Assembly: GCA_013178125.1 (NCBI GenBank)
Contig: JABLXJ010000012.1
Coordinates: 1-64,000, forward strand
Direction: 5' to 3'
Length of the DNA: 64,000 nucleotides
DNA from: Bacillota bacterium
Lineage (GTDB): Bacteria; Bacillota; SHA-98; Ch115; JABLXJ01
A program made the position numbers and the translations under genes. A model generated the notes under the pieces. That model had not been told where the DNA came from, did no database searches, and was given only the letters and a program-made list of their open reading frames with translations. Positions within the stretch are counted from its first letter, which is position 1. Each line of letters opens with the position of its first letter. This document shows positions 31,795 to 64,000 of this stretch, piece by piece.

Positions 31795-32817
31795 CTACCT
31801 GGGACCACTATTTCCTTTTCCTCTTCCTCTCACTGGGCTCACCGCTACCACCCTGGCCTCACCGACGCGTTGCGCGAGCTTCATTATCCTCCGCATCCGG
31901 TGATTCACAGCCGACTTGCTTGCCGGGGGCTTGAGCAGCCTCCCTAGCTCCTCGAGGGTCAAATCGGGGTTTGACCTCCGCACATCAGCAATGTCCCTGA
32001 GTGCCTGGGGCAAGTTCAATATCCCGATGGTCCGGTCGATCAAGTCGATCGCCCTCACCTGCTTCATTGCCGTCTTCGCCGTCCTCGCCAGGTTGGCAGT
32101 CTCAAAGTTTACAATGCGATTAACCCTGTTGCGCAGGCCCTTCACTATCCTGAGATTTTCGAGGTGAAGCAGGGCCATGTTTGCGCCCATCACGCGAAGC
32201 GCCTGCGCCACCGCCTCCCCATCCCTGGAATAAACCACATATTTGCCTTTATGTCTAGTAACCCCGGCGTCGATCGAAAAGGAAGAGAGCAGCCGGCGGG
32301 TGTCTTCCGCGAGGCCTGGAGTATCTACAGTCAGCTCCAGGGCATATGCCTTTTCAGGATCAGAAATGTACCCGCACATGAGAAACAAGGCCCTCAAGTA
32401 AGCCCGGGAGCAACAGTCCGAGCCCAGGATAGGCGAGGGCACCCCGTCCACCCTCCGGCCATCACGGGTAATCAATCCACTCTCGACCGCGGCACCTCGG
32501 GCCGCGCTATTAAGGGTGATCCTGAGGGTGTAAATGGTATCCCTCTTAGGCCTCGGCCATCTCTGGACGATCACCTCCGAGCTGGCGCCCAGCACCTTCT
32601 TTATCGTTGCGAAAACCCTCCGAGCTATAGCCGCATCCCGGATCGATAGCTTCAGGATGGGCTCCCCCTCCCCGGTCGTCGGGACCATGTCCGCCCCGGC
32701 CGCGATAAAGGCCATCAACTCTGCGAGCTGGCAGCATTCCTTCGTGTTTGCTACCCGCGCAAGTTCGCTCGTGGTCTGGAGGAAGAAAACCATGTGCCTG
32801 TCTCGCCTCACTCTCAT
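31795..32817 (-). CDS. whiA: DNA-binding protein WhiA
   Basis: This 340-residue protein combines a degenerate LAGLIDADG-like N-terminal domain (CCSRAYLRALFLMCGYISDPEKAYALELTV) with a C-terminal helix-turn-helix (LRDIADVRRSNPDLTLEELGRLLKPPASKSAVNHRMRRI). WhiA controls sporulation in actinobacteria and influences division and chromosome segregation in Bacillus. It normally sits directly after rapZ-yvcK. Here the sleB-spmA-spmB group intervenes on the opposite strand. Confidence 0.95.
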   Translation of the reverse strand: MRVRRDRHMVFFLQTTSELARVANTKECCQLAELMAFIAAGADMVPTTGEGEPILKLSIRDAAIARRVFATIKKVLGASSEVIVQRWPRPKRDTIYTLRITLNSAARGAAVESGLITRDGRRVDGVPSPILGSDCCSRAYLRALFLMCGYISDPEKAYALELTVDTPGLAEDTRRLLSSFSIDAGVTRHKGKYVVYSRDGEAVAQALRVMGANMALLHLENLRIVKGLRNRVNRIVNFETANLARTAKTAMKQVRAIDLIDRTIGILNLPQALRDIADVRRSNPDLTLEELGRLLKPPASKSAVNHRMRRIMKLAQRVGEARVVAVSPVRGRGKGNSGPR

Positions 32818-33231: not shown

Positions 33232-33738
33232 ATGTTTCGATCCAGAGGAACGGCCCACACTGCCATCATGTTAGTTATAATCCTAATATCCGCTCTGGCA
33301 ATTGTCGCGGAGCCAATCGCACCGGGTCAGAAGGCATACGCTGCCCTGAGCACCAGCCAGCCCTGGGGCGGCGACCGGAACAGCGGCTGGGCCTACCTGT
33401 GGCTGATAGCCCAGTTGATCCACGCCGAGGCCACCAACGAACCCTACGCCGGCAAGGTCGCCGTGGGGGCTGTGGTTCTCAACAGGGTTGCCAGCCCCAA
33501 GTTCCCCAACACAGTGCCCGGTGTGATATATGAACCGTATGCATTCACCCCCGTATATGACGGCCGCATAAACCTCCCTCCTGACAGCGAATCAATCCGC
33601 GCAGCGCAGGATGCCCTATCGGGCTGGGACCCATCCTACGGGGCACTTTATTTCTACAATCCTGCGAAGTCCACATCCTGGTGGGTATTCACCAGGACCA
33701 TTACAACAAGAATAGGGAACCACATCTTCGCCAGGTGA
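33232..33738 (+). CDS. SleB-type cell wall hydrolase
   Basis: This 168-residue exported protein has an N-terminal signal segment (TAIMLVIILISALAIVAEPIAPGQKAYA) and the Hydrolase_2/SleB domain: LIAQLIHAEATNEPYAGKVAVGAVVLNRVASPKFPNTVPGVIY, with the catalytic Glu in HAEA, then ALYFYNPAKSTSWWVFTR. SleB lytic transglycosylases open spore cortex during germination, and relatives act in general wall turnover. No peptidoglycan-binding domain is fused here, which is typical of the short CwlJ/SleB-like forms. A strong 'aaggaaggag' site precedes the ATG. A terminator hairpin follows. Confidence 0.88.
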   Translation: MFRSRGTAHTAIMLVIILISALAIVAEPIAPGQKAYAALSTSQPWGGDRNSGWAYLWLIAQLIHAEATNEPYAGKVAVGAVVLNRVASPKFPNTVPGVIYEPYAFTPVYDGRINLPPDSESIRAAQDALSGWDPSYGALYFYNPAKSTSWWVFTRTITTRIGNHIFAR

Positions 33739-33804: not shown

Positions 33805-34039
33805 TCTTCTATTTACCCCGCTACCCCACTATGACTTATACCTTAGCACTTTACACCTTCACCCTTGCGCCTTCATAACTTCATAACACCTTTGCACCTT
33901 CATGCCTCTCCTGTCATATCCCACGGCGAGGCCCGAATACATTTTAGATAACGGGTGCAAAAGGCTGGCGGCGGGTGGGGATAAACAGGCAGGCCGGCAC
34001 CCGGCGCGTAGACCAGTATCCAGCGGAGGTTATCGACAC
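33805..34039. other. Spacer before spmA
   Basis: This stretch is built partly of short imperfect repeats ('cacctt', 'cttcata'). It carries an in-frame upstream extension of spmA that is not needed for the protein. The first well-placed start is the ATG at 34040, behind 'cggaggtt'. Confidence 0.5.
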
Positions 34040-34639
34040 ATGGTCAACCTGGTATGGTTCCTACTCATCGCAGCCGGTGTTATCACCGGGGCCCTATCGG
34101 GCAGGAACGAGGCCGTTACCCATGCAGCCCTATCGGGGGCCCATGCAGCAGTAACCCTGGTTTTAGGCCTGGTCGGCGTAATCACCATGTGGTCAGGCGT
34201 TATGAAAATCGCAGAGGAAGCGGGTCTCACGGAGATGATCGGCCGCCTCGTGAGGCCCGTGGCGGCCCGCATCTTCCCGAGCATCCCGGAGGATCACCCC
34301 GCCATGACCGCCATAGTCATGAACGTAATTGCCAACATCCTCGGCATGGGCAACGCTGCGACCCCCCTGGGTTTGAAGGCCATGGAGGAGATGCAGAGGC
34401 TCAACAGGAAAAAGGATGAGGCCTCGGATGCGATGTGCACCTTTCTGGTCCTCAATCTCTCCATAGTGGTCCTGGTCCCGACGACCGTCATAGCTATAAG
34501 GGCCCAGCATGGATCGGCGAATCCCACCGAGACCGTCGGTCCGACCATCATCCTCACAACATGCTGCATGATCCTCACCCTGGTCGCAGACAGGGTAATA
34601 AGGGGGCTATCCATCTCGAAGCACCCGCGCCGGAGATGA
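34040..34639 (+). CDS. spmA: Spore maturation protein A
   Basis: This roughly 199-residue membrane protein has the nucleoside-recognition (Gate) domain shared with SpmA of Bacillus: TMWSGVMKIAEEAGLTEMIGRLVRPVAARIFPSIPEDHPAMTAIVMNVIANILGMGNAATPLGLKAMEEMQ. SpmA and SpmB are needed for spore-core dehydration. The ATG at 34040, behind a GGAGG, is preferred over an upstream in-frame start at 33902, because the family begins at MVNLVWFLLIAAG. spmB follows 36 bp downstream. Confidence 0.93.
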   Translation: MVNLVWFLLIAAGVITGALSGRNEAVTHAALSGAHAAVTLVLGLVGVITMWSGVMKIAEEAGLTEMIGRLVRPVAARIFPSIPEDHPAMTAIVMNVIANILGMGNAATPLGLKAMEEMQRLNRKKDEASDAMCTFLVLNLSIVVLVPTTVIAIRAQHGSANPTETVGPTIILTTCCMILTLVADRVIRGLSISKHPRRR

Positions 34640-34675
34640 GCGCGAGCTGAGCGAGAGACGAGCGAGGTAAACGCC

Positions 34676-35218
34676 ATGTTTATGAGCATCATCAAGATCC
34701 TCTCCAGTGCCGCAATCCCCTTTACAATCCTATTCATCTGCCTTATCGGCTACGTGCGCGGGGTCAAGATATATGACGCCTTCATCGATGGCGCAAAGGA
34801 GGGGCTCGCCACGGCGGTGAGGATCCTCCCTTTCCTGGTCGCCATGTTCGTGGCCATAGGGATATTCCGCGCATCGGGGGCGATGAGCATATTCACCAGC
34901 CTGCTCTCGCCAATCGCCCGGCTCATGGGCATATCCGGGGACCTGCTGCCCCTCGCAATCGTACGGCCCCTGTCCGGGACCGGCTCCATGGAGGTCCTGT
35001 CGGATATCCTGAAGGTTCACGGCCCTGATTCCCTCACGGGGCGAATGGCCTCGGTGATGCAGGCGAGTTGCGAGACGACTTTCTACATCATCACAGTATA
35101 CTTCGGCGCCGTGGGCATAAAGAAAATCCGCCATACCCTCGTTATCGGATTGATGGCGGATGCCTTAGCCTTTATCGGCGCCATCCTCATCTGCCGGGCT
35201 CTATTCGGCAGCGCTTGA
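34676..35218 (+). CDS. spmB: Spore maturation protein B
   Basis: This 180-residue membrane protein is paired with spmA. The family block FIDGAKEGLATAVRILPFLVAMFVAIGIFRASGAM, and the later RPLSGTGSMEVLSDILKVHGPDSLTGRMASVMQASCETTFYIITVYFG, are intact. It acts with SpmA in the spore envelope. The gene converges on yvcK with a 31-bp gap. Confidence 0.95.
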   Translation: MFMSIIKILSSAAIPFTILFICLIGYVRGVKIYDAFIDGAKEGLATAVRILPFLVAMFVAIGIFRASGAMSIFTSLLSPIARLMGISGDLLPLAIVRPLSGTGSMEVLSDILKVHGPDSLTGRMASVMQASCETTFYIITVYFGAVGIKKIRHTLVIGLMADALAFIGAILICRALFGSA

Positions 35219-40573: not shown

Positions 40574-42379
40574 TCATGGACTTATATGACCCTGATGGCT
40601 TTTCTTCGACAAAGATTGAGGAGTTCCTCCTGGCTTCAGACCAAGAAACGCCATCGGATCAATATCAGGGAACAGCACGTCTGTCTCGGGCCCCGGTCCC
40701 AATTCCCCCAATTCCACCCCCAATTCGAACTCTCCTCCCAGTCCCAGTCCTGATTCCACCATGCCCGCCAGCTTCCAAAACCTCTCCCGGTGCTCTATAA
40801 ACCTCTTCGTGGCGTATTCCCTCGCACCCTGAGTTGTGATCAAGAACGGCCAGTCGCTGCTCTGGAGGAGTAAAGCCTCGCGGGCTGCCTGGCGCAATAG
40901 ATCCATCCCCGCCGGCGCCACGGTGGAGGACACCTCAGCGAACATCCTGGCCAGATCCCTCATCTTCTCCTCAATCGCGTGTATGTCACGCCACATCCAT
41001 TCCGTGTCCGAATTTGCCCAGATATAGTGCTTGCCGCCCAACCCCCAGGAGCTTTCGTGTAACTCTATGGCCTGGTCCGGCGGATGAGTGCTCAGGTAAC
41101 CCCCGGTAGTAGTCAGCTCTATGGCGGGATTCTGAGCCATCTTCTCGAGCACCCTTCCAAGCCACTCAACTCCCTCAAACCACCAGTGACCGAAAAGTTC
41201 AATATCATACGGGGCAACAAGTATCCCATGTCTTCCGGTCTCCCGGTGAAACTCCGCCAGCAACTGCTCAACAAGCCATGTGAAATGACTTGAATGCTCC
41301 TCTACCCTTCCCCAGGCACCCTCAACATTATAGAGCTCCTTACCATCCAGGTCAACGAGGTGGCTTGTCACCTTCCAGTACTGGAACCCCGACTCGGGAT
41401 CCCGCCTGTGAAACTCCCTGTAATTTCCATCCCCCGGGTACCCCCATTCACTCGACCAGACCTGCAGCCCCGTCCGCTCGTTACGTCCAAACGCAACAAC
41501 CGTGCTCCCTTCAAGGTAATAAGGGAGAAACGTTGTCTTGCCGGTGCGTTCTCGCTCTTGTTGTGTTTCGTCACCCATATCCTCGGCAAGATCAACGGGC
41601 CCTACCTTCGTGTACTGGCTAAACGCCCTGCCACCCTCGATAGCGTGGGAATCCACGAAGAAATATTCTATACCGAGCTCCTCCAGGAATGACTCGATCC
41701 CGCGTTTAAACTCCGGCCGGGGCTGTGACTCGAGGTGAGGCTGCGACTGGAGCTGGGACTGGGTCCGCGACTGAGGCTGAGGCTGGGGCCGGCGGGGGCG
41801 ATAGGCGCATTCCGGAAGCCAGGCGCCCCTGGGCCGTCTCCCGAAGTGTCGCACATACGAGTCAATGCCCATCTTGAGCTGGGCATAAATGGACTCCTCG
41901 GTGGAGAGAAGGGGAAGATAGGCGTGGGTTGCGGCGCTTGTTATAATCTCGATCTCCCCCGAATCTTGCAGGTCTTTGAACGCGCCGACAACGTCCCGCC
42001 CGTACCTTTCCGTAAAGCTCCTCTTTATACCCGTGTAATAATCCCTGTAAAATCGGGCAAGCTCCTCCATCTTAAACTCATTCAATTCGGCGAATCTCCC
42101 AATATCGCCCTCGGCCCTTTTAATCTTATCATCCAGGTATTGTTCAAACCGCCCCAGCATATAAGGATCGGCAAGCTGCTCCACCAGGACGGGCGTGAGG
42201 CCCACCGTAATCCTTACAGGCAGGCCTCTGGCCTTGAGGTCGTTTAGCACATTCAAGACCGGCAAATACGTTTCCGCCAGGGCCTCCATCACCCACTCCT
42301 CTCCGAAGGGCCAGACCCCCGCTTTTCGACAATATGGCAGGTGGCTGTGTAAAACAAAATTAAAGGAACCAATAACCAT
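40574..42379 (-). CDS. GH57 family protein, probable 1,4-alpha-glucan branching enzyme A
   Basis: This 601-residue protein begins with the GH57 segment FNFVLHSHLPYCRKAGVWPFGEEWVMEALAETYLPVL and has the nucleophile region GAWLPECAYRP and the acid/base region VAPYDIELFGHWWFEGVEWL. The C-terminal helical domain (LLLQSSDWPFLITTQGAREYATKRFIEH) is typical of GH57 branching enzymes. Directly after the nucleophile motif there is an insertion of about 25 residues made of PQ/SQ repeats that family members, including the second copy in this window, lack. It may loop out near the active site. The protein is probably cytoplasmic and acts on glycogen-like glucans. Confidence 0.88.
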   Translation of the reverse strand: MVIGSFNFVLHSHLPYCRKAGVWPFGEEWVMEALAETYLPVLNVLNDLKARGLPVRITVGLTPVLVEQLADPYMLGRFEQYLDDKIKRAEGDIGRFAELNEFKMEELARFYRDYYTGIKRSFTERYGRDVVGAFKDLQDSGEIEIITSAATHAYLPLLSTEESIYAQLKMGIDSYVRHFGRRPRGAWLPECAYRPRRPQPQPQSRTQSQLQSQPHLESQPRPEFKRGIESFLEELGIEYFFVDSHAIEGGRAFSQYTKVGPVDLAEDMGDETQQERERTGKTTFLPYYLEGSTVVAFGRNERTGLQVWSSEWGYPGDGNYREFHRRDPESGFQYWKVTSHLVDLDGKELYNVEGAWGRVEEHSSHFTWLVEQLLAEFHRETGRHGILVAPYDIELFGHWWFEGVEWLGRVLEKMAQNPAIELTTTGGYLSTHPPDQAIELHESSWGLGGKHYIWANSDTEWMWRDIHAIEEKMRDLARMFAEVSSTVAPAGMDLLRQAAREALLLQSSDWPFLITTQGAREYATKRFIEHRERFWKLAGMVESGLGLGGEFELGVELGELGPGPETDVLFPDIDPMAFLGLKPGGTPQSLSKKSHQGHISP

Positions 42380-42835
42380 CGCTTGATCCCCCGGGATAAT
42401 TTCCAGATATCTACGTGGGTTCCACGTATCTACGCGGATTCCACACGCTTTGCTCCTACACTATTTATGTCCGTTTTCCTTTCCCTCTAATCCGCGGGTT
42501 AATCCACGAAAACCCAGCTGTGAACGCGACCCCCGGATCCCCGAATTTAAAATTATAGATCAGTCTTGAATCATAAAATGAGCCGTCCGGCGCAATACTA
42601 TAAGTTAGCATTGGGTAGATAAACTATGGTTTTCTCTGCCATGCAACTTCACCGCCCGGCATATTTCGCCAGGGCATCGGGGCGCTATGCTAAATCCTGG
42701 CGTCAAATCCTATAACAAATGATAGGCTTATGACTTGATGTGGCATGCCATGTTATATGACATGGTTATGATAAAATAGTTACGATAGATCTGTAACAGG
42801 AATGTAACAGGAACAGGCAACAGGGGGTAGCAGTT
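42380..42835. other. Divergent intergenic region of the glucan cluster
   Basis: No gene is seen. It contains an inverted repeat with arms TACGTGG / CCACGTA at 42412-42428, 33 bp before the GH57 start on the minus strand. A second, with arms CCATGT / ACATGG, is at 42748-42765 ahead of the DUF4912 gene, next to an AT-rich 'gataaaat'. Both could be regulator sites for the divergent genes. Confidence 0.5.
42748..42765. promoter_or_regulatory. Inverted repeat upstream of the DUF4912 gene
   Basis: CCATGT and ACATGG are exact reverse complements, separated by 6 bases, and lie about 70 bp before the TTG start. An AT-rich stretch ('gataaaatag') follows, so this may be an operator beside a promoter. 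Confidence 0.4.
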
Positions 42836-43822
42836 TTGGCAGGCCGTTTGGATGAAGACCTGAAGAACCAGGAAAAGCAGGAAAAGGACGTTGAGGAAAT
42901 CTGTCTTCCCGCTGAGGTTGCGGAGCTAACTACAATTGAAACTAGGGAGATAAATCTTGCCCAGGACGCAGGGCGTGGCGAGGTTTATCCCAGGTTTATG
43001 ATGGAGGCGGAATATGAGCTCCCGGCCGGTTACGGCGAGACCAAACTGGTTCTCCAGGTTAGAGACCCGTACTGGATGCATGCCTACTGGGAGGTATCAG
43101 AGGAGACTATCCGGGATATCCAGGGGGTGCTGGGCCCCCTCGCCTGGGAGGAGGCCCAGCGAACCCTGAGGGTCCACGATATCACGGATATAGACTTCGA
43201 TGGTACAAACTCCCTCTACTCCTTTGAAATCCCCATCAATAATGTGGCAAACAACTGGTATATAAACGTCGAACGCCCCAACCGGCGCTACTGTGTGGAC
43301 CTGGGTGTCAAAAACGAAACAGGGGATTTCATCCTGATCACCAGATCAAACCCTGTCCATACGCCAAGGGATGGGGTCTCGGAGATCGTGGATGAGGAGT
43401 GGATGACGCTCGAGGCCATCGAACGGGCCTACCCGGTGCCGTCGCCGCGGGGACCGAGCTCGCCCGAATTTGTCCGGAGCCAGGAACTTCAAATGCAACG
43501 CGAGTACGAAGAAGTAGGCTCCGGCGCTTTGGGCCTTATAAGCAGTCCAGGCGCCATAAGCAGCCCGGGCCCGGGCATAGCCTACCCGCATAAAAGGGGT
43601 TTCTGGCTCACAGCTGATGTTGAGATCATAATCTACGGCGCCACCGAGCGGGACGCATCTGTGACCATCCAGGGGATGCCTGTAAAGCTGCGACCCGACG
43701 GGACATTCACGGTGCGGTTTGCACTCCCCGTGGGCGAGCAGGTTATCCCCGTAGAAGCCGTATCCGCTGATGGCAAGGATCGCCGCCGGATCACAACGAC
43801 CATCAGCAGGAGGACCACCTGA
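42836..43822 (+). CDS. DUF4912 domain-containing protein
   Basis: This 328-residue soluble protein has the DUF4912 domain at about residues 55-175: LPAGYGETKLVLQVRDPYWMHAYWEVSEETIRDIQ..., FEIPINNVANNWYINVERPNRRYCVDLG, FILITRSNPVHTPRDGVS. The C-terminal 90 residues form a small beta-sandwich-like unit (DVEIIIYGATERDASVTIQGMPVKLRPDGTFTVRFALPVG). DUF4912 genes commonly sit beside GH57 branching enzymes, as here, and are thought to bind glucans. No enzymatic role is known. The start is TTG. GH57 enzyme B follows 120 bp downstream. Confidence 0.88.
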   Translation: MAGRLDEDLKNQEKQEKDVEEICLPAEVAELTTIETREINLAQDAGRGEVYPRFMMEAEYELPAGYGETKLVLQVRDPYWMHAYWEVSEETIRDIQGVLGPLAWEEAQRTLRVHDITDIDFDGTNSLYSFEIPINNVANNWYINVERPNRRYCVDLGVKNETGDFILITRSNPVHTPRDGVSEIVDEEWMTLEAIERAYPVPSPRGPSSPEFVRSQELQMQREYEEVGSGALGLISSPGAISSPGPGIAYPHKRGFWLTADVEIIIYGATERDASVTIQGMPVKLRPDGTFTVRFALPVGEQVIPVEAVSADGKDRRRITTTISRRTT

Positions 43823-43942
43823 AACCTGAGACTCAGCGAAAACCAGGCAGTATAAAAGCGTAAGTCAGTATATTAGTATATCAGTATAGTTAGTATAGTT
43901 AACATGATTAATGTAACTTAGCACGCCATTGGAGGGAAAATC

Positions 43943-45541
43943 GTGGAAAAAGGCTACCTGGCGCTTGTTCTCCATGCGCATCTTCCCTATATCCGGCACC
44001 CCGAGCATGATGAATTCCTCGAGGAAACCTGGCTTTATGAAGCTATCACGGAAAGCTATATCCCCCTCCTGAGGATATTAAACGGCCTTATGGATGATGG
44101 TGTTGACTTCCGGCTTACAGTATCATTTACACCAACCCTTGTCTCGATGCTCAATGACCCCCTGCTGCAGGAGCGATATGTCCGCCACATCGGGAAATTA
44201 ATCGAACTGAGCGAAAAAGAGGTTGAAAGAACCAGGTGGCAGCCGGTATTCAACGAAAATGCCCGGATGTACAGGGACAGATTCTACGAGGCGAGACACC
44301 TATTCGAGGATGAGTATGGGCGCAATATCCTCGCGGGCTTTAAAAGGCTGCAGGATGCGGGACGCCTCGAGATCATCACGTCGGCCGCGACCCACGGCTA
44401 CCTGCCGCTCATGGAGCTTTACAGGGATGCCGTGAGGGCACAGATCAAGGTGGCGCTCCAGCTCTATGAGAAGGTCTTCGGGAGAAGACCCGTTGGATTC
44501 TGGCTTCCAGAATGCGGCTACAACCCAGGTGACGATGCCGTCCTCCTAGAGGAAGGGATCCGTTACTTTTTTACGGATGCACACGGGGTTCTAAACGCCT
44601 CCCCGCGACCCCGGTACGGGGTCTTCGCCCCCATATATTGCCCCTCGGGTGTGGCTGCCTTCGGGCGTGACATGGAATCATCCAAACAGGTATGGAGCGC
44701 GAGGGAGGGCTACCCCGGGGATTACGACTACAGAGAATTCTATCGGGATATAGGCTATGACCTTGAATATGACTATATCCGCCCATACATACACAAGAGC
44801 GGGATACGGATAAATACAGGGATCAAGTATTACCGCGTCACGGGGAAAACCCCCGCTAAAGAACCCTACATCCGCCGCAATGCCATAGAAAAGGCAGCCA
44901 TCCACGCAGGGAACTTCATGTTCAACCGCGAGCGGCAGATTGAATACCTGTATAGCGTGATGGATAGAAAACCCGTGGTAGTTGCCCCATATGATGCAGA
45001 GCTCTTCGGTCACTGGTGGTTCGAGGGGCCTGAATGGCTCAATTTCCTGATTCGAAAAATCGCCTATGACCAGAACATAATCAAGCTCATAACCCCGGGC
45101 GACTACCTCAATATCTATAAGCGAAACCAGGTATCAACGCCCTCGCTTTCGAGCTGGGGCTACAAAGGCTATAACGAGGTATGGCTCGAGGGGAGCAACG
45201 ACTGGATATACCGGCACCTGCATAAAGCTGCTGAGAGGATGAGAGAGCTCGCAAGGGCATACCCCAGTGCGGGTGGAGTGCTGAGGCGCGCCCTGAACCA
45301 GGCCGCGCGGGAGCTGTTGCTGGCCCAGAGCAGCGACTGGGCGTTTATAATGAAAACGGGAACGATGACCCAGTATGCGATCAAGCGCACGAAAGACCAC
45401 ATCGGGAGGTTTACCAGGCTTTACGAGAATATCAGGCGCAACTCCATAGACGAGGCCTGGCTGGGTGATATAGAATACAAGGATAATATCTTCCCCGATA
45501 TCGACTACCGCGTGTACTTCACTACGCCCGCACAGGCATGA
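43943..45541 (+). CDS. GH57 1,4-alpha-glucan branching enzyme B
   Basis: This 532-residue protein has the GH57 opening GYLALVLHAHLPYIRHPEHDEFLEETWLYEAITESYIPLLRIL, nucleophile region GFWLPECGYNPGDDAVLLEEGIRYFFTDAHG, and acid/base region VAPYDAELFGHWWFEGPEWL. The C-terminal domain (LLLAQSSDWAFIMKTGTMTQYAIKRTKDHIGRF) is that of the branching-enzyme type. Its length is typical and it lacks the PQ insertion of enzyme A. The start is GTG behind 'ggagggaaaatc'. It probably introduces alpha-1,6 branches into glycogen or another alpha-glucan, together with the DUF4912 protein and the GT4 transferase. Confidence 0.92.
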   Translation: MEKGYLALVLHAHLPYIRHPEHDEFLEETWLYEAITESYIPLLRILNGLMDDGVDFRLTVSFTPTLVSMLNDPLLQERYVRHIGKLIELSEKEVERTRWQPVFNENARMYRDRFYEARHLFEDEYGRNILAGFKRLQDAGRLEIITSAATHGYLPLMELYRDAVRAQIKVALQLYEKVFGRRPVGFWLPECGYNPGDDAVLLEEGIRYFFTDAHGVLNASPRPRYGVFAPIYCPSGVAAFGRDMESSKQVWSAREGYPGDYDYREFYRDIGYDLEYDYIRPYIHKSGIRINTGIKYYRVTGKTPAKEPYIRRNAIEKAAIHAGNFMFNRERQIEYLYSVMDRKPVVVAPYDAELFGHWWFEGPEWLNFLIRKIAYDQNIIKLITPGDYLNIYKRNQVSTPSLSSWGYKGYNEVWLEGSNDWIYRHLHKAAERMRELARAYPSAGGVLRRALNQAARELLLAQSSDWAFIMKTGTMTQYAIKRTKDHIGRFTRLYENIRRNSIDEAWLGDIEYKDNIFPDIDYRVYFTTPAQA

Positions 45542-58196: not shown

Positions 58197-59141
58197 TTAT
58201 GCTGCACGGCGATGCCGCCACCACCACATGAATGCCGCGAGCGCTACCGCTGCGACCAGGGCGACCACGGCGCCGACGGTCTCCATACCCCCGCCGATCC
58301 CAGATTCCGATACAGGGTGGATCGTGGCCAGGGTCCCGCGAGCGAGGTTATACGAGCTGAGCATCGCCTCTTGGGAATACCTCCCCCGGGCCAGCGCCAG
58401 CATGTCTATAACATTCGGGTCGAAGTCGAGATCGCTCCCGCCCCCGAAGACCCAGCTCCCGGGCTTCTCCATGACCGGGCGGTAATCGTCGATCCCAAAG
58501 GCGTCCTGGGAACCTATGAGTACATAGTAACGCCAGCGTGACGTCGGCTCGCCCAGAATGGCTCTTGGGACCGCCACCCTTATAGTCTTGCTCTGCGGGA
58601 GGACCTCCGCCCTGACTCCTTCAGAGACCCCTTTGCTTTCGGCCGTATCCCGCGCAGTAAATACCCTGCTGCCGCCCCATCCCAGCACTTTGACCTGAAA
58701 ATCCCACGCATATCTCTTGTCAAAGGCCACCTGGGCGCCGGGCTTTAAGGTCTGGGTCCTACCCTCCCCGCTTACGCTATCAATGTAGATGTTGATCAGC
58801 TGGTGGCTGAAGCCCTCGGGCGCATTCCAGGGGTTGGTTATCTCCTTGAAGGTCGAGTCGAAGTACACATACTCTGAATTATAGCTGACAGAGAAATGGA
58901 TGAGGTCAAACAGGCCATCGTGCTGAAATACCTTGTGCAGCGGGTAGACGTATGAACCTGGACCGTGATCATCGCCCTCGGGGTCGTCCATGTCGAAAAC
59001 GACTCTCGCCTGGCCCTGTGCCTGCAGCTGCCCCTCGAGGTAGGTCCCAAAGAGGATAAATAAAAAAAGTGCTAGTGCCAGCGTCAGGAGAACAATGATA
59101 AGCGACCGTGCAATATTAAGCTGTTGCCGGCCCCTCGACAT
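58197..59141 (-). CDS. Membrane-anchored Glucodextran_C-like protein
   Basis: This 314-residue protein has an N-terminal signal/anchor helix (SLIIVLLTLALALFLFILFGTYL) and a C-terminal membrane helix followed by a basic tail (VGAVVALVAAVALAAFMWWWRHRRAA). The beta-rich region between them matches the C-terminal binding module of glucodextranase and pullulanase-like enzymes: DMDDPEGDDHGPGSYVYPLHKVFQHDGLFDLIHFSVSYNSEYVYFDSTFKEITNPWNAPEGFSHQLINIYID. It probably binds surface polysaccharide from the outer face of the membrane. No catalytic domain is present. GGGGAGGGG precedes the ATG. Confidence 0.82.
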   Translation of the reverse strand: MSRGRQQLNIARSLIIVLLTLALALFLFILFGTYLEGQLQAQGQARVVFDMDDPEGDDHGPGSYVYPLHKVFQHDGLFDLIHFSVSYNSEYVYFDSTFKEITNPWNAPEGFSHQLINIYIDSVSGEGRTQTLKPGAQVAFDKRYAWDFQVKVLGWGGSRVFTARDTAESKGVSEGVRAEVLPQSKTIRVAVPRAILGEPTSRWRYYVLIGSQDAFGIDDYRPVMEKPGSWVFGGGSDLDFDPNVIDMLALARGRYSQEAMLSSYNLARGTLATIHPVSESGIGGGMETVGAVVALVAAVALAAFMWWWRHRRAA

Positions 59142-59312: not shown

Positions 59313-60275
59313 TCACGCCGGCGCAAGCTTGAGGGCCAGCGTCGCCGCTCCCACGATCCCGGCGTCCGACCCCAGCTGGGCTGGCACTATCCTCACAGCC
59401 TCCCGGGCCCCCTCAACGGCCCGCTCCCTCACAGTTGTACGCACGGTATCAAACAACATATCCCCTATCCTCGAAACCCCGCCGCCTATGACCACAACCT
59501 CGGGGTTCAGTATGTTTACCAGGTTGGTAACCCCGAGGCCCAGATAGGTGGCTGCCTCGCGGATGATGGCCAGCGCCACGCCATCGCCGGCCAAAGTAGC
59601 CCTGGCCACGACCTCTGCGTTGACGCCTGCATCCCCCCCGGCGATCTCCCGGATCATCGTCTTCTCGCCCGCGGCTATGGCTTCACGAGCCATGCGCGCT
59701 ATCGCCGTCCCAGAGGCCATGGCCTCGAGGCAGCCATACTGCCCACACCCGCATTGCGGGCCATCAGGCTTTATTATCGTATGGCCAACCTCTCCGGCCA
59801 CGAATGTAGATCCGCTGTAGACATCACCATTGATTATAATCCCACCGCCAATGCCGGTGCTCACGGTTATGTAGATCATGTTCTTCGCGCCCTGCCCCGC
59901 GCCGAACCTCAGCTCACCTAGGGCTGCGAGATTCGCGTCGTTTTCGAGGTAGACCGGGATGCCAAGCTCAGCTTCGACCATGTCCTTAACAGGGACATTA
60001 TGCCACTTGAGGTTGGGAGCGAAAATCACCACTCCGCTTACCGGATTCAACGGGCCTGGGCTCCCGATACCGATCCCTCTAACGTCGCCCGCAGCTATGC
60101 CGAGCGTCGCCATAACCTCCGTGATCCCGCCAGAAATCCGGGATATGACGGGGCCCACCCCCTCGCCTGGCAGGGTCGGCCTGGTGAGCCGCGCCGCTAT
60201 GTTTCCCTCGGCATCCATGACGCCAAAGGCGATCTTCGTGCCCCCCAGGTCAACCCCGATAACCCATCTCTTCAT
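59313..60275 (-). CDS. ROK-family glucokinase/sugar kinase
   Basis: This roughly 320-residue kinase has the phosphate motif VIGVDLGGTKIAFGVMD, the substrate region GIGSPGPLNPVSGVVIFAPNLKWHNVPVKDMVE, the ENDANLAALGE active-site block, and the ROK zinc cluster GHTIIKPDGPQCGCGQYGCLEAMASGTA. Glucose is the likely substrate, given the nearby phosphoglucose isomerase. I chose the ATG at 60275 behind GGGGGT. An in-frame extension to 60362 translates a purine-rich microsatellite (ETETGIETEKLRWRWRW) and is not part of the family. Confidence 0.92.
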   Translation of the reverse strand: MKRWVIGVDLGGTKIAFGVMDAEGNIAARLTRPTLPGEGVGPVISRISGGITEVMATLGIAAGDVRGIGIGSPGPLNPVSGVVIFAPNLKWHNVPVKDMVEAELGIPVYLENDANLAALGELRFGAGQGAKNMIYITVSTGIGGGIIINGDVYSGSTFVAGEVGHTIIKPDGPQCGCGQYGCLEAMASGTAIARMAREAIAAGEKTMIREIAGGDAGVNAEVVARATLAGDGVALAIIREAATYLGLGVTNLVNILNPEVVVIGGGVSRIGDMLFDTVRTTVRERAVEGAREAVRIVPAQLGSDAGIVGAATLALKLAPA

Positions 60276-60407
60276 TGCTGACCCCCATCTCCATCTCCAT
60301 CTCAACTTCTCCGTCTCTATCCCCGTCTCCGTCTCTATCTCCTTTTTTAGCTCTATTCCCATCCCGAATACCGAATATTCATGCTCGAGGGGCTTGCGAC
60401 CCGCCGC

Positions 60408-61484
60408 CTACTTGACCTTCGCGAGCTCGCCCTTGAGATAGTCGATGGCAGCTACCGGCGTGGGATCCACGCCATAAAGGAATGCCAGATATGCGCTGGC
60501 GAAATCTCCCACATAGATGAGGGACAAGAGCCGTGCCAGCTCTGACCCGCCCGTGCTCCACACCTCATCGATGCCTGAAGCATTGGCCATCAAGGACTTT
60601 GTTATCTCCATCCGCTTCTGGACCCTCGGATGATCTCCCTTATCGCGAAGGAGGACGACATAGAGCTGACCTGCTATGCCCCTGGGCGCGCCCCAGCCCA
60701 CCGTCTCATTATGGTTCATTTCGGGGAAAATATTAGAGACGGCATAGGTCTTGCTATTTTCGTTGATCTGGCACTTCCAGCGGAGGGCCGCCGTGCCCGG
60801 CCACCCGGACGATCCATAGATAACTGGAATCTTATCCAACATCCTCGCGGCAAGCCTCTTGCTCTGATTGACAGACCCCGGAGATTCGGGTCCGAGAACC
60901 TTTCGAAGCTCAATGAGGACATCGACTGCTTCCGCGAGATCCCCTGACTTGTCCGCAATGAGGCCAAGTTTTCCCAGGACGGCCAGCGTCGGAATGAAGA
61001 GGTAACCCAGAGCGGCCCTGGGAACAAGCGTTCCCGGTATCCTTATCACCGGCACCCCGTCACCTGCAGCCAGCTCCGCGAGCTTCCCTCCCGATGTGAT
61101 ACAGAGAATCTTCGCGTTCCTCGCTCTAGCCGCCTGATATGAGCTTATGGTCTCTTCCGTGTTCCCTGAATAGCTCGAGGCAATAACCAGCGAATCCCTA
61201 TCAACAAACCCCGGCAGGTCGTAATCCCGGCTCACGACAACAGGAATGTTGAGTTCAGGTCCGGCCAGGGTCCTCAGGAGATCCCCGCCGATGGCCGAGC
61301 CGCCGAGCCCCGCCACAACGATATTGCGAGCCGCTGCAAAATCGCCGGGGATGTCCACCCTGGATGCCATCTCCCACGCCTCCCGGCACTGCTCGGGCAG
61401 GCCCTGTATGAATCCCATCATCCCGCGCGGATCAGCCTTCTTCATAGTCTCGACATCGTCCAGATTTATATTTGCCTGTGTCAT
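60408..61484 (-). CDS. Bifunctional phosphoglucose/phosphomannose isomerase
   Basis: This 358-residue protein belongs to the two-SIS-domain PGI/PMI family found in archaea and some bacteria. Key segments are IVVAGLGGSAIGGDLLRTL, VIASSYSGNTEETISSYQAARARNAKILCITSGGKLAELA, VPRAALGYLFIP, YAVSNIFPEMNHNETVGWG and YLAFLYGVDPTPVAAIDYLKGEL. It interconverts glucose-6-P or mannose-6-P with fructose-6-P. It supplies both glycolysis and the sugar-nucleotide pathway, and precedes the ROK kinase gene on the same strand. Confidence 0.94.
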   Translation of the reverse strand: MTQANINLDDVETMKKADPRGMMGFIQGLPEQCREAWEMASRVDIPGDFAAARNIVVAGLGGSAIGGDLLRTLAGPELNIPVVVSRDYDLPGFVDRDSLVIASSYSGNTEETISSYQAARARNAKILCITSGGKLAELAAGDGVPVIRIPGTLVPRAALGYLFIPTLAVLGKLGLIADKSGDLAEAVDVLIELRKVLGPESPGSVNQSKRLAARMLDKIPVIYGSSGWPGTAALRWKCQINENSKTYAVSNIFPEMNHNETVGWGAPRGIAGQLYVVLLRDKGDHPRVQKRMEITKSLMANASGIDEVWSTGGSELARLLSLIYVGDFASAYLAFLYGVDPTPVAAIDYLKGELAKVK

Positions 61485-61725: not shown

Positions 61726-62826
61726 CTACCTGATAGCCCTCTCGGTCTTCTTATCGAACAAGTGGGCCTGATCGGTGTTGAAGACAACCTGGATATCAGC
61801 ACCGTCAGTGGCGCGCGTCTTTGCATCGACCCTCGCGACAAAGGACTGCGGGCCATTCGACAGATACAGGTAAGCCTCCGAACCCATCGGCTCCATGACA
61901 TCCACCGTGGCCTTGACGATCCTGTCAGCCACAGGATTGGGGACAAGATCCTTATCGTCGATATGCTCAGGCCGGATCCCGAAGATCACTTCCTTGCCCA
62001 CATACTCCCCGATCCGCTCGAACCTGTTTGCGGGGAGCTTCACCTTGAAGCTCTCGCAGTCGGCGTAATAATCGTCACCCTCCTTGGTAATCCTGGCATC
62101 CAAGAAGTTCATTGCGGGACTGCCGATGAACCCGGCGACGAAAACGTTATCCGGGTGGGAGTATATCTGAAGCGGCGCGCCAACCTGCTGTATGAAACCA
62201 TCCTTCATGACCACGATCCGGTCGCCCATCGTCATGGCCTCGGTCTGGTCGTGGGTTACATAGATGATGGTCGTCTGCAGCCTGTTGTGCAGCTTGCTGA
62301 GCTCAGATCTCATCTGCACCCTGAGCTTTGCATCAAGGTTTGAAAGCGGCTCATCCATCAAGAATACCTTTGGCTCGCGGACTATAGCGCGTCCTAGGGC
62401 AACCCTCTGTCGCTGGCCGCCAGACAGCTCCTTGGGCTTCCGGTTGAGAAGGTTCTCGATGCCCAGGATCCGGGCCGCCTCCTTCACCCGCTTGTCGATC
62501 TCGGCTTTGGGGAACCTGCGCAGTTTGAGACCAAACGCCATGTTATTATATACATCCATGTGGGGATATAGCGCGTAGTTCTGGAAGACCATTGCGATAT
62601 CCCGGTCCTTGGGGGGCACATCATTTACCACGTTATCCCCGATATAGATGCTTCCGCTCGTGATTTCCTCGAGGCCGGCAACCATCCTCAAGGTTGTGGA
62701 CTTGCCGCACCCGGAGGGACCTACCAGCACAAGAAATTCCTTGTCCTTTATTTCCAAAGTAGCGTCATTAACCGCAATGACGTTACCGAATGCTTTAGTA
62801 ACATGGTCGAGAAATACTCTCGCCAT
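61726..62826 (-). CDS. MsmX/UgpC-type sugar ABC transporter ATPase
   Basis: This 366-residue ATPase carries Walker A GPSGCGKSTTLRMVAG, signature LSGGQRQRVALGRAIV, Walker B VFLMDEPLSNLDAKLR, H-loop IIYVTHDQTEAM, and a C-terminal TOBE-like domain with FGIRPEHI and SNGPQSFVARVDAKT. MsmX-type ATPases energise several carbohydrate importers, so the lack of adjacent permeases is not surprising. I prefer the ATG at 62826, eight bases after AAGGAGG. The ATG at 62832 would touch that site. Confidence 0.95.
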   Translation of the reverse strand: MARVFLDHVTKAFGNVIAVNDATLEIKDKEFLVLVGPSGCGKSTTLRMVAGLEEITSGSIYIGDNVVNDVPPKDRDIAMVFQNYALYPHMDVYNNMAFGLKLRRFPKAEIDKRVKEAARILGIENLLNRKPKELSGGQRQRVALGRAIVREPKVFLMDEPLSNLDAKLRVQMRSELSKLHNRLQTTIIYVTHDQTEAMTMGDRIVVMKDGFIQQVGAPLQIYSHPDNVFVAGFIGSPAMNFLDARITKEGDDYYADCESFKVKLPANRFERIGEYVGKEVIFGIRPEHIDDKDLVPNPVADRIVKATVDVMEPMGSEAYLYLSNGPQSFVARVDAKTRATDGADIQVVFNTDQAHLFDKKTERAIR

Positions 62827-63420
62827 CCTCATGCCTCCTTAAATCGACGTTAAAATAAGCGTAACGTCTACGCGTGATTTGAATCATCCAGTTGAGAATT
62901 GACTAAGAAATCACGTGATTCAATTTCGACCTGATCCCCGGCGACACACCGCCGCCCGGGTTCCCCGCCACCTCTGGCGAGAGCTCCTGTAAAAAGCCCC
63001 AGCTCCAGGGAGCATGCTACGCCTGGCTTCTCACTCGCGACGAAAGGCTATAGTAGACCAAGCTTCAGTCAAGCTCTTTACGCCGGGTCATTATTCGGAT
63101 ATATTGTCATTAATACATTTTTGAATGATCTATTTAAATTCAGGAATGAGATCTCCCCCCTCCAATCCCCCTTTCATAACGCATATCCCACGCAATTCAT
63201 GTCAAACCGAGATATCTTCAGGTGTTTCTGCGGTTTCAGGAGCCGGACTGTATAACACACCTGAGAACCCCTGGTAACGGCCCTGTCCCCCATTAAGGCC
63301 ATTTCTGATATTACTTATTCAACAAAAGTTTCACATATCCTCCTTAGATTTGAGGATTTTTTGTGTTTTAAGGGCTAATCCAGGTCAAATCAACACCACA
63401 ATAATTATATCATATTTGAA
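62827..63420. other. Gene-poor region before the barrel-like gene
   Basis: No gene is seen in about 590 bp. An AATCACGTGATT palindrome lies at 62909-62920, and a related 'gtgatttgaatca' at about 62875-62887. The repeated GTGATT/AATCAC half-sites upstream of the sugar ABC ATPase gene could be operator sites. The rest is AT-rich and unremarkable. Confidence 0.45.
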
Positions 63421-63448
63421 AGTCCCCGGGGCATCAACCCCGGGGACT
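63421..63448 (-). terminator. Terminator hairpin after the barrel-like gene
   Basis: AGTCCCCGGGG and CCCCGGGGACT form a perfect 11-bp stem around a 6-base loop. On the minus strand it is followed by 'tttcaaatat'. A second small hairpin (aggagg/cctcct, about 63454-63474) lies between it and the gene end at 63551. Confidence 0.7.
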
Positions 63449-63550: not shown

Positions 63551-64000
63551 CTAGAACTCGATCTTGAGGCCTGCAGTGGCCGAGAGGCCGTCAACTATGT
63601 CGTCATCGTAGCCCTTGTCGTAATTCACCGCGAATTTGATCCCGTTGGGCGCGGTGTAAGCCACGCTGCCGAGGTAGCTGCGGTCGTCGCCCTGCACCTT
63701 CGCCTTGCCCGTCAGCTCAACGGCGTTGAGTATGGGCACGGGCACCGTCGTGCTGGCCTCGACCTTGTGCTCAGCCGGGGCGTTGCTCTTCATGGTCAGG
63801 TCGTATTTAGCGTCTACACTAAGTGGCCCGACTGGGAGAGCCCGCTCCGCCCCGAACGTGATGGTTGTGAGCTCGTCAGGATCGCCCTGGTGTATCGCGC
63901 CCTGGGCCAGCTCATAGCCACCCTTGAGTTTGAAGCCCTCGAACATGGTCTCAGCCTTCACGCCGTAGACCGTCTTGTCGCCCTCGGGCCGCTCGTATAC
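63551..64000 (-). CDS. C-terminal part of a beta-strand-rich, porin-like protein (partial)
   Basis: The frame is open to the window edge, so only the last 149 or so residues are seen. The sequence alternates polar and hydrophobic residues in 9-12-residue strands separated by short acidic turns (LSVDAKYDLTMKSN, VELTGKAKVQGDDRSYLGSVAYTAPNGIKFAVNYDKGYDDD). It ends LSATAGLKIEF. A terminal Phe after an amphipathic strand is the outer-membrane-barrel signature. The absent N-terminus might carry an S-layer-homology domain, as in diderm Firmicutes. An S-layer or other cell-surface beta protein is the alternative. Confidence 0.6.
   Translation of the reverse strand, partial: VYERPEGDKTVYGVKAETMFEGFKLKGGYELAQGAIHQGDPDELTTITFGAERALPVGPLSVDAKYDLTMKSNAPAEHKVEASTTVPVPILNAVELTGKAKVQGDDRSYLGSVAYTAPNGIKFAVNYDKGYDDDIVDGLSATAGLKIEF

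Follow-up and report, generated by a model that had tools for sequence, protein, structure and literature searches.

The open frame at the end of the DNA analysed here is likely to be the 3' end of a gene for an outer-membrane β-barrel without an SLH domain, most plausibly a passive sugar porin, in a diderm member of the Bacillota that carries sporulation genes. The stretch under study (the window) comprises positions 1-64000 of contig C12 of a 3.48-Mb draft genome in 54 contigs. The porin family, which has neither a Pfam nor an NCBIfam model, and its sugar gene string are added here to an earlier sequence-only reading of the window. The mRNA leader of the gene contains a hairpin, and this leader RNA ties the porins and the OmpM tethers into one set across the diderm Bacillota.

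The putative porin gene and its product

The minus-strand frame of 149 codons ends in ...TAGLKIEF and runs off the window end. With the upstream sequence (C12:62000-76000) the gene was completed to C12:63551-65074, encoding 507 residues. Its N-terminus (MRKLTIALVAALVVAMALPVMAAP...), read directly from the sequence, looks like a Sec signal peptide, namely MRKLTIALVAALVVAMALPVMA, and is similar across the aligned homologues. An SLH domain is absent according to the Pfam search, and the SLH matches of the host at E 0.001 are confined to two other proteins; thus, of the two upstream features expected from the window alone, the signal peptide is present and the SLH domain is not. No Pfam or NCBIfam family matches the porin, even at E 1.

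The mean alternation of hydrophobic and polar residues is 2.44 in the last 149 residues and 1.94 in the mature porin, against 1.50 ± 0.23 and 1.49 ± 0.12 for shuffled sequences (none of 200 shuffles was as high in either case). For every one of the 15 aligned porins, no more than 4 of 200 shuffles equal the observed value. As controls, eight soluble proteins encoded in the gene string (two in the host, six in the relative G013) show values of 1.31-1.72, each equalled by at least 31 of 200 shuffles, whereas the BamA barrel of the host (1/200) and an OmpM barrel of the class (0/200) are porin-like. Counting strong strands discriminates less well: there are 21 in the mature porin compared with 15.8 ± 2.6 after shuffling (7/200), and an unexceptional 7 compared with 4.8 ± 1.5 (24/200) in the last 149 residues. 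The final EF of the C-terminal β-signal is invariant in all 15 aligned sequences, the porin itself counted. The barrel-like C-terminus ending in Phe, proposed from the window alone, is therefore borne out by the alternation and by the conserved terminus, and less clearly by the strand count.

A PDB search with the 15-sequence profile found no relative (best E 0.59), and the AlphaFold single-sequence model of a ~90% identical homologue is worthless (pLDDT 32.7), so that the assignment of the fold rests on sequence. No viral relatives of the porin were found.

S-layers occur in many Bacillota, and the protein could belong to the surface layer, or otherwise to the cell wall, of a monoderm, with the alternation of an extracellular β protein. 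The lack of a match to any curated barrel family would fit such an assignment, but the porin contains neither SLH nor any other Pfam domain, its final Phe is kept throughout the alignment, and BamA, TamB, Skp and LpxD are encoded in the same genome; a surface-layer protein is thus very unlikely, and the outer-membrane barrel is retained.

Table 1. Positions of the features discussed (window numbering, unless a contig is named)
Feature	Position	Strand	Evidence or remark
SleB-like spore cortex hydrolase	33232..33738	+	TIGR02869 E 9.8e-54, 182.3 bits (under the cut-off of 236.5); PF07486 E 2.8e-36, over the cut-off
Gate-domain membrane protein, first of a pair	33902-34639	+	PF07670 E 5.4e-13
Gate-domain membrane protein, second of the pair	34676-35218	+	PF07670 E 3.3e-15
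Glucodextran_C protein (SLH-like binding module)	58197..59141	-	PF09985 E 3.5e-71; near the sugar gene string
ROK-family glucokinase	59313..60362	-	TIGR00744 E 3.6e-85
Bifunctional phosphoglucose/phosphomannose isomerase	60408..61484	-	NF006426 E 2e-139
MalK/UgpC-type ABC sugar-import ATPase	61726..62832	-	UgpC NF008653 498.7 bits, over the cut-off; MalK NF008233 443.7 bits, under the cut-off
GC-rich inverted repeat, 10-bp arms, terminator-like	63422..63447	-	3' of the porin stop; then TTTCAAAT on the minus strand; read by eye
C-terminal 149 codons of the putative SLH-free porin-like outer-membrane barrel (507 aa)	63551..64000	-	gene extends to C12:65074, beyond the window
Leader hairpin stem-GNAACNNGGNNA-stem before the porin	C12:65171-65196 (L002:3172-3197)	-	covariance model
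Leader hairpin stem-GNAACNNGGNNA-stem before a 683-aa protein	C4:252351-252376 (L215:852-877)	+	covariance model

Distribution of the porin family

The porin is single-copy and conserved through the class, with homologues 39-90% identical to the query in 16 of 17 genomes, all but G007. Among named records the nearest is the MAG 'Bacillota bacterium isolate AS04akNAM_80' (89% identical). The alignment and the profile derived from it (A1) comprise 15 sequences, the homologue of G006, split over two contigs, being left out. Among 398 genomes of the phylum, 16 of them from the class, the profile matches 68, of which 53 lie outside the class; E values reach 1.5e-65 (distant homologue L110), and for three of the 53 the best E is worse than 1e-5.

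Outer-membrane and sporulation genes

The host genome encodes an Omp85/BamA protein with POTRA domains on contig C19 (PF01103, E 4.8e-50), together with TamB, Skp/OmpH and LpxD in a string that is cut by the contig end. The search for bamA and lpx genes put forward in the sequence-only reading thus succeeds for bamA and for LpxD, while LpxC was not found in the host assembly, where the cluster stops at the contig end, yet is present in the other 16 of the 17 class genomes. A Phe-ending protein beside this contig end has a weak FadL-family match under the cut-off. Next to TamB and BamA lies also a 692-aa protein with a SpoIVB-type peptidase S55 domain (L003:12577-14655, minus strand; PF05580, E 1.7e-10).

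In G003, of the same genus, a single contig contains LpxC, FabA/FabZ-type, LpxA-type, LpxB, ABC-exporter, LptC, LptA/LptD_N and LptF/LptG domains (LptB was named by position, from a general ABC match). This arrangement resembles the outer-membrane gene cluster of Negativicutes and Halanaerobiales, as outlined in the passages cited (PMC5007114). The same contig encodes a 942-aa protein with SLH, a coiled coil and a final Phe. OmpM-like SLH frames of ~840-1025 aa are found on the LpxC contig in relatives, and OmpM-like SLH-coiled-coil proteins, two of them in tandem, occur in G014 and G015.

Two candidate systems were set aside. A Thermotoga-like split tether, with the anchor and the porin apart, had been considered on the basis of the two host SLH proteins, one of which combines SLH, a coiled coil and a C-terminal hydrophobic segment; the class scan, with its OmpM-like SLH frames on LpxC contigs, speaks against it, and the host cluster itself breaks off at the end of its contig. 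OmpA/Pal (PF00691) matches occur in 15 of 17 class genomes and number three in the host; the one inspected (L065) is by eye MotB-like, beside MotA, and an OmpA/Pal protein was not retained for the host.

Proteins that join SLH to a long coiled coil and have a hydrophobic segment at the C-terminus (Omp-α-like) were seen at L010:2940-4487, L091:186-5808, L092, L089 and L090, and single-SLH frames of this size are present in 17 of 17 class genomes (five inspected). In G015 the Omp-α-like gene follows ExbB/TolQ, ExbD/TolR and TonB_C genes. It is possible that the Omp-α-like SLH protein and the ExbB/ExbD/TonB_C genes make up a Tol-like energised tether system.

The SpoIVA ATPase is encoded in 17 of 17 class genomes (E below 1e-113), the host copy being located on contig C2. 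In the window, a SleB-like gene passes the Pfam but not the NCBIfam cut-off, and it is followed by the pair of Gate-domain proteins (33902..35218), which we take to be SpmA/SpmB-like. The sleB-like, spmA and spmB genes named from the window alone would correspond to these genes; as for cggR, the one gene examined for it (31795-32817) is WhiA. With BamA, TamB, Skp/OmpH and LpxD on the one hand and SpoIVA, the SleB-like hydrolase and the Gate-domain pair on the other, the earlier proposal of a diderm sporeformer agrees with the gene content, and it is well supported that the host lineage is diderm and carries sporulation genes.

A binning error could bring together a barrel and spore genes from different organisms. 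The assembly is a draft of 54 contigs (98.4% completeness, 2.04% contamination) with BamA, SpoIVA and the porin on separate contigs (C19, C2 and C12, respectively). The combination recurs, however, in the class (of 17 genomes, the porin and LpxC are each in 16 and SpoIVA in all; Omp85 is in 15 of the 16 class genomes of the 398-genome sample), and the SleB-like and Gate-domain genes lie on C12 together with the porin, which makes such an error exceedingly improbable.

A diderm that sporulates, Acetonema longum of the Negativicutes, is already described in the passages cited (PMC5007114), so the host would be a further case and not a new kind. The present data add a class of 17 genomes in which outer-membrane and sporulation genes coexist; diderm sporeformers bear on the origin of Gram-positive cells from two-membrane ancestors.

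Gene neighbourhood and possible function

In the host, the gene next to the porin on its 3' side encodes the MalK/UgpC-type ATPase, and the isomerase and the glucokinase lie beyond it (Table 1). Synteny was followed by tblastn at 1e-15 in the 16 porin-bearing genomes, of which 14 are testable, the contigs of G002 and G016 ending just 3' of the porin. The MalK-type ATPase is found 3' of the porin and on the same strand in 14/14, the phosphosugar isomerase belongs to the string in 13/14, and the ROK glucokinase in 12/14 (G008 and G014 are cut by contig ends). A LacI regulator lies between the porin and MalK in 10/14, and a solute-binding protein with two permeases is part of the string in 9/14, while in the host and two relatives the porin is followed by MalK, isomerase and kinase only, the binding protein and permeases being absent. 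Five distant loci were compared: on the 3' side of the porin homologue, L110 has MalK and L112 the isomerase and the kinase; argF lies on the opposite side in two, and none of these genes is present in one.

The gene order, in which the porin precedes the MalK-type ATPase, isomerase and glucokinase, often with LacI and a sugar importer in between, points to a sugar porin, and a porin feeding the ABC importer would be the simplest reading. Since MalK-type ATPases serve several importers, its substrate is a guess. The protein may also be an outer-membrane barrel but no sugar channel, serving general diffusion, a structural role or lipid transport, with sugar neighbours that only reflect an old gene order. 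Arginine and lysine genes on the other side of the porin are likewise kept in many genomes, so order alone does not establish function, and in 5 of the 14 testable genomes the binding protein and permeases were not found between the porin and MalK. The strict retention of sugar genes on the 3' side and the frequent LacI-type regulator speak against a barrel unrelated to sugars, which is a real possibility without being the probable one. As a sugar porin, the protein would cross the inner membrane via Sec and be carried by Skp/OmpH to BamA, which, using its C-terminal signal, would fold it into the outer membrane; there it would admit sugars or oligosaccharides by diffusion for uptake by the adjacent ABC importer.

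Two further features were observed. The host window contains, besides the sugar string, two α-glucan enzymes of the GH57/branching-enzyme type (40574-45541; PF03065, PF09210). Upstream of the porin in G001, a cobalamin riboswitch (L084:5815-6003, plus strand) lies just before a ribonucleotide-reductase-like gene, the gene being recognised by eye.

A conserved hairpin in the mRNA leader

The leader of the porin mRNA is conserved in parts: GAAAGGAGGTG is followed, at least ~80 nt later, by a hairpin with the loop GNAACNNGGNNA and then by the ribosome-binding site. These elements also occur ahead of OmpM-like genes and of distant porins, and the hairpin is present at 16 of 16 class porins. A two-part pattern gave 32 matches in 16 of 17 class genomes (11 at porins, 21 at SLH genes) against one match for the reversed pattern; it misses porin leaders with other spacing, hence the 11 of 16 porins. 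The motif GAAAGGAGGTG (near L002:3268 on the minus strand, and in leaders L110-L149) is a perfect Shine-Dalgarno complement without a start codon, located in many loci roughly 150-340 nt upstream of the barrel start codon.

With the covariance model at E 0.01, two copies were found in the host (Table 1). The 683-aa protein behind the second copy has a signal peptide and ends in KIPF. No copy is found inside the 64-kb window at E 1, the porin leader being 1.2 kb past the window end. A third leader-bearing, barrel-like family was noticed in six genomes (L215:944-2992 and L216-L220; 610-706 aa, ending in PF); two members searched against Pfam gave no match, and in the host the gene is ~10 kb from a triple-SLH gene.

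RNAalifold shows little structure over the whole leader alignment (-4.16 kcal/mol, 9 pairs), which aligns poorly outside the hairpin and in which the rows of G004 and G010 start 3' of the first motif. The hairpin was therefore aligned separately, as 54 distinct copies (A4) with at least three stem pairs required next to the loop. Among 35 out-of-class loci, 29 passed this filter (L118, L119, L135, L137, L148 and L149 failed); chance loops in two OmpM loci (L151:680, L152:967) were left out. The loop letters G, AAC, GG and CT are fixed by the pattern, so that their invariance is uninformative.

In the 54 hairpins, 83.1% of the stem cells pair, compared with 66.8% after shuffling (0/500 shuffles as high). 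The cells changed on both sides number 93, against 38.9 ± 6.2 shuffled (0/500) and at most 24 for slid versions, and the covariation score is 0.511 against 0.210 (0/500), figures that are inflated by related sequences and by the inclusion rule of three loop-adjacent pairs. Two coarser measures fall within the shuffles, namely the double-change pairs (5; 478/500) and the further pair types (18; 298/500). With no stem filter, the loop occurs in 25 of the 35 out-of-class loci (an A before the 3' arm was required). Among 27 distinct unfiltered loops, two of them evident chance cases, the third, fourth, sixth and seventh positions pair at 0.93, 0.81, 0.67 and 0.67, compared with 0.65, 0.48, 0.41 and 0.40 when shuffled; the fifth position shows no excess (0.56 in both). 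On the opposite strand of the out-of-class regions the loop motif occurs 0 times, and in shuffled regions 1.4 times.

A hairpin loop with A-N-GGA, the GGA being invariant, is the hallmark of CsrA/RsmA sites, and the frequent loops ACAAGGA and ACATGGA resemble it. The A after GG, a position left free in the pattern, is nevertheless found in 68 of 97 distinct hairpins only, with C, T or G in the other 29, and GG is replaced by GA in two of the weaker matches to the model (L243 and L244, the latter before a porin-profile gene). A CsrA/RsmA site is thus unlikely. The hairpin would be a cis-acting site, jointly setting the synthesis of the main outer-membrane barrels through a bound protein or ligand.

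Occurrence of the hairpin and of Omp85 in the phylum

The covariance model R1 matches 74 of the 398 phylum genomes at E 0.01, and Omp85 matches 102 of them at E 0.001 (101 over the cut-off). The leader hairpin is present in 73 of the 102 genomes with an Omp85/BamA match, against 1 of the 296 without one: both are found in 73 genomes, the leader only in one (G006, a fragmented member of the class), Omp85 only in 29, and neither in 295. The Fisher value of 1e-54 is not to be taken as a probability, as the genomes are related. A laxer search of the 29 Omp85-only genomes (E 0.1, with about three chance hits expected) gave matches in 12. Nine of these lie before signal-peptide or SLH genes (G344, G185, G209, G256, G335, G364, G051, G092 and G395), those in G035 and G202 do not, and G324 is ambiguous. 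G209 has five hairpins, and 78-80 nt downstream of each lies a gene whose product begins with MKKTLV..FAAANPFSDVPRDHWAYDAV, which is an OmpM-type SLH start.

In the loci L185-L234 and L161, some of which overlap, 60 of 62 hairpins precede a frame with a signal-peptide-like stretch at the first or an internal start; of the two exceptions, one (L207) is an additional motif ahead of such a gene and the other (L212) precedes an ambiguous frame. These loci were chosen by the model or the pattern, so the count describes what lies downstream and not how frequent the leader is among barrels. A count of 88 'SLH genes' was not used, as it counts alternative starts in loci mostly selected for the leader.

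In the passages cited, Stav et al. (2019) describe the 'SLH motif' as a riboswitch candidate for S-layer genes, perhaps responding to c-di-GMP, with 80 examples in Synergistaceae and Firmicutes (Clostridia, Negativicutes), ~60% of them upstream of genes for SLH proteins (PMC6429828). The leader hairpin is probably this element, to judge by the genes that follow it. As reported there (PMC6429828), the leader precedes both SLH (OmpM) genes and genes for SLH-free proteins; unlike in that S-layer account, the genes behind it seem to encode barrels of the outer membrane, and its occurrence tracks that of Omp85. If the two are the same, the element belongs to genes of outer-membrane proteins rather than of S-layers. 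Rfam has no family match at the leader, with only weak miRNA-type hits nearby, far below the gathering scores. Among the literature matches listed, there was no later work on the 'SLH motif' or on an OmpM leader RNA, and no paper on control of barrel synthesis in diderm Bacillota; the terms tried were absent from the main text of Weinberg et al. (2010; PMC2864571).

We lean, with some reserve, to the view that across the diderm Bacillota a single small ancestral leader hairpin marks and co-regulates the major barrels, OmpM tethers as well as SLH-free porins, that it persisted where BamA did and disappeared along with the outer membrane, and that the 'SLH motif' is its OmpM part, misread as an S-layer element. 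The hairpin could help to spot outer-membrane genes in draft genomes and makes the control of barrel synthesis in such cells testable.

Comparison with known systems

The first motif of the leader, GAAAGGAGGTG, presumably resembles a STAB-SD sequence. STAB-SD is an mRNA-stabilising Shine-Dalgarno sequence (Agaisse and Lereclus 1996, in the reference list of PMC3997798). As would fit such a sequence, many leaders carry GAAAGGAGGTG, or something close to it, well ahead of the start codon. The motif is not universal: it is present in 21 of the 35 out-of-class loci, and at the OmpM loci L221-L227 none was found up to 160 nt from the hairpin.

Among curated barrels, SlpA of Deinococcus (SlpA_C) and Porin_4 are approached by the distant homologue L110, which matches both under the cut-off (E 5.8e-7 and 7.8e-6, respectively); unlike it, the porin matches neither, nor do four other distant homologues, for which no Pfam family was found at all. 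Porin_4 is matched over the cut-off by a leader-bearing SLH-free barrel of G384, a genome without a match to the porin profile.

A coiled coil belongs to the anatomy of Omp-α. In Thermotoga, Omp-α and Omp-β are an anchor and a separate porin, according to the passages cited (PMC3387000). The class resembles this pair in having, besides the SLH-free barrel, a protein (P0002) in which one SLH is joined to a long coiled coil and a hydrophobic C-terminal segment, and differs from it in having fused OmpM-like proteins as well, so that its tether is not purely split.

OmpM is described in the passages cited as an SLH-bearing barrel that serves diderm Firmicutes as both tether and channel of the outer membrane (PMC10628300, PMC5007114). 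The porin lacks the SLH domain and the coiled coil of OmpM and would hence provide no wall tether, it sits in a sugar gene string and not in the LPS cluster, and the profiles of the two barrels are not significantly related (hhalign probability 16%). Like OmpM, it appears to be a Phe-ending outer-membrane barrel of diderm Bacillota with a BamA/TamB/Skp/Lpx/Lpt cluster, and the OmpM-like genes carry the same leader hairpin as the porin.
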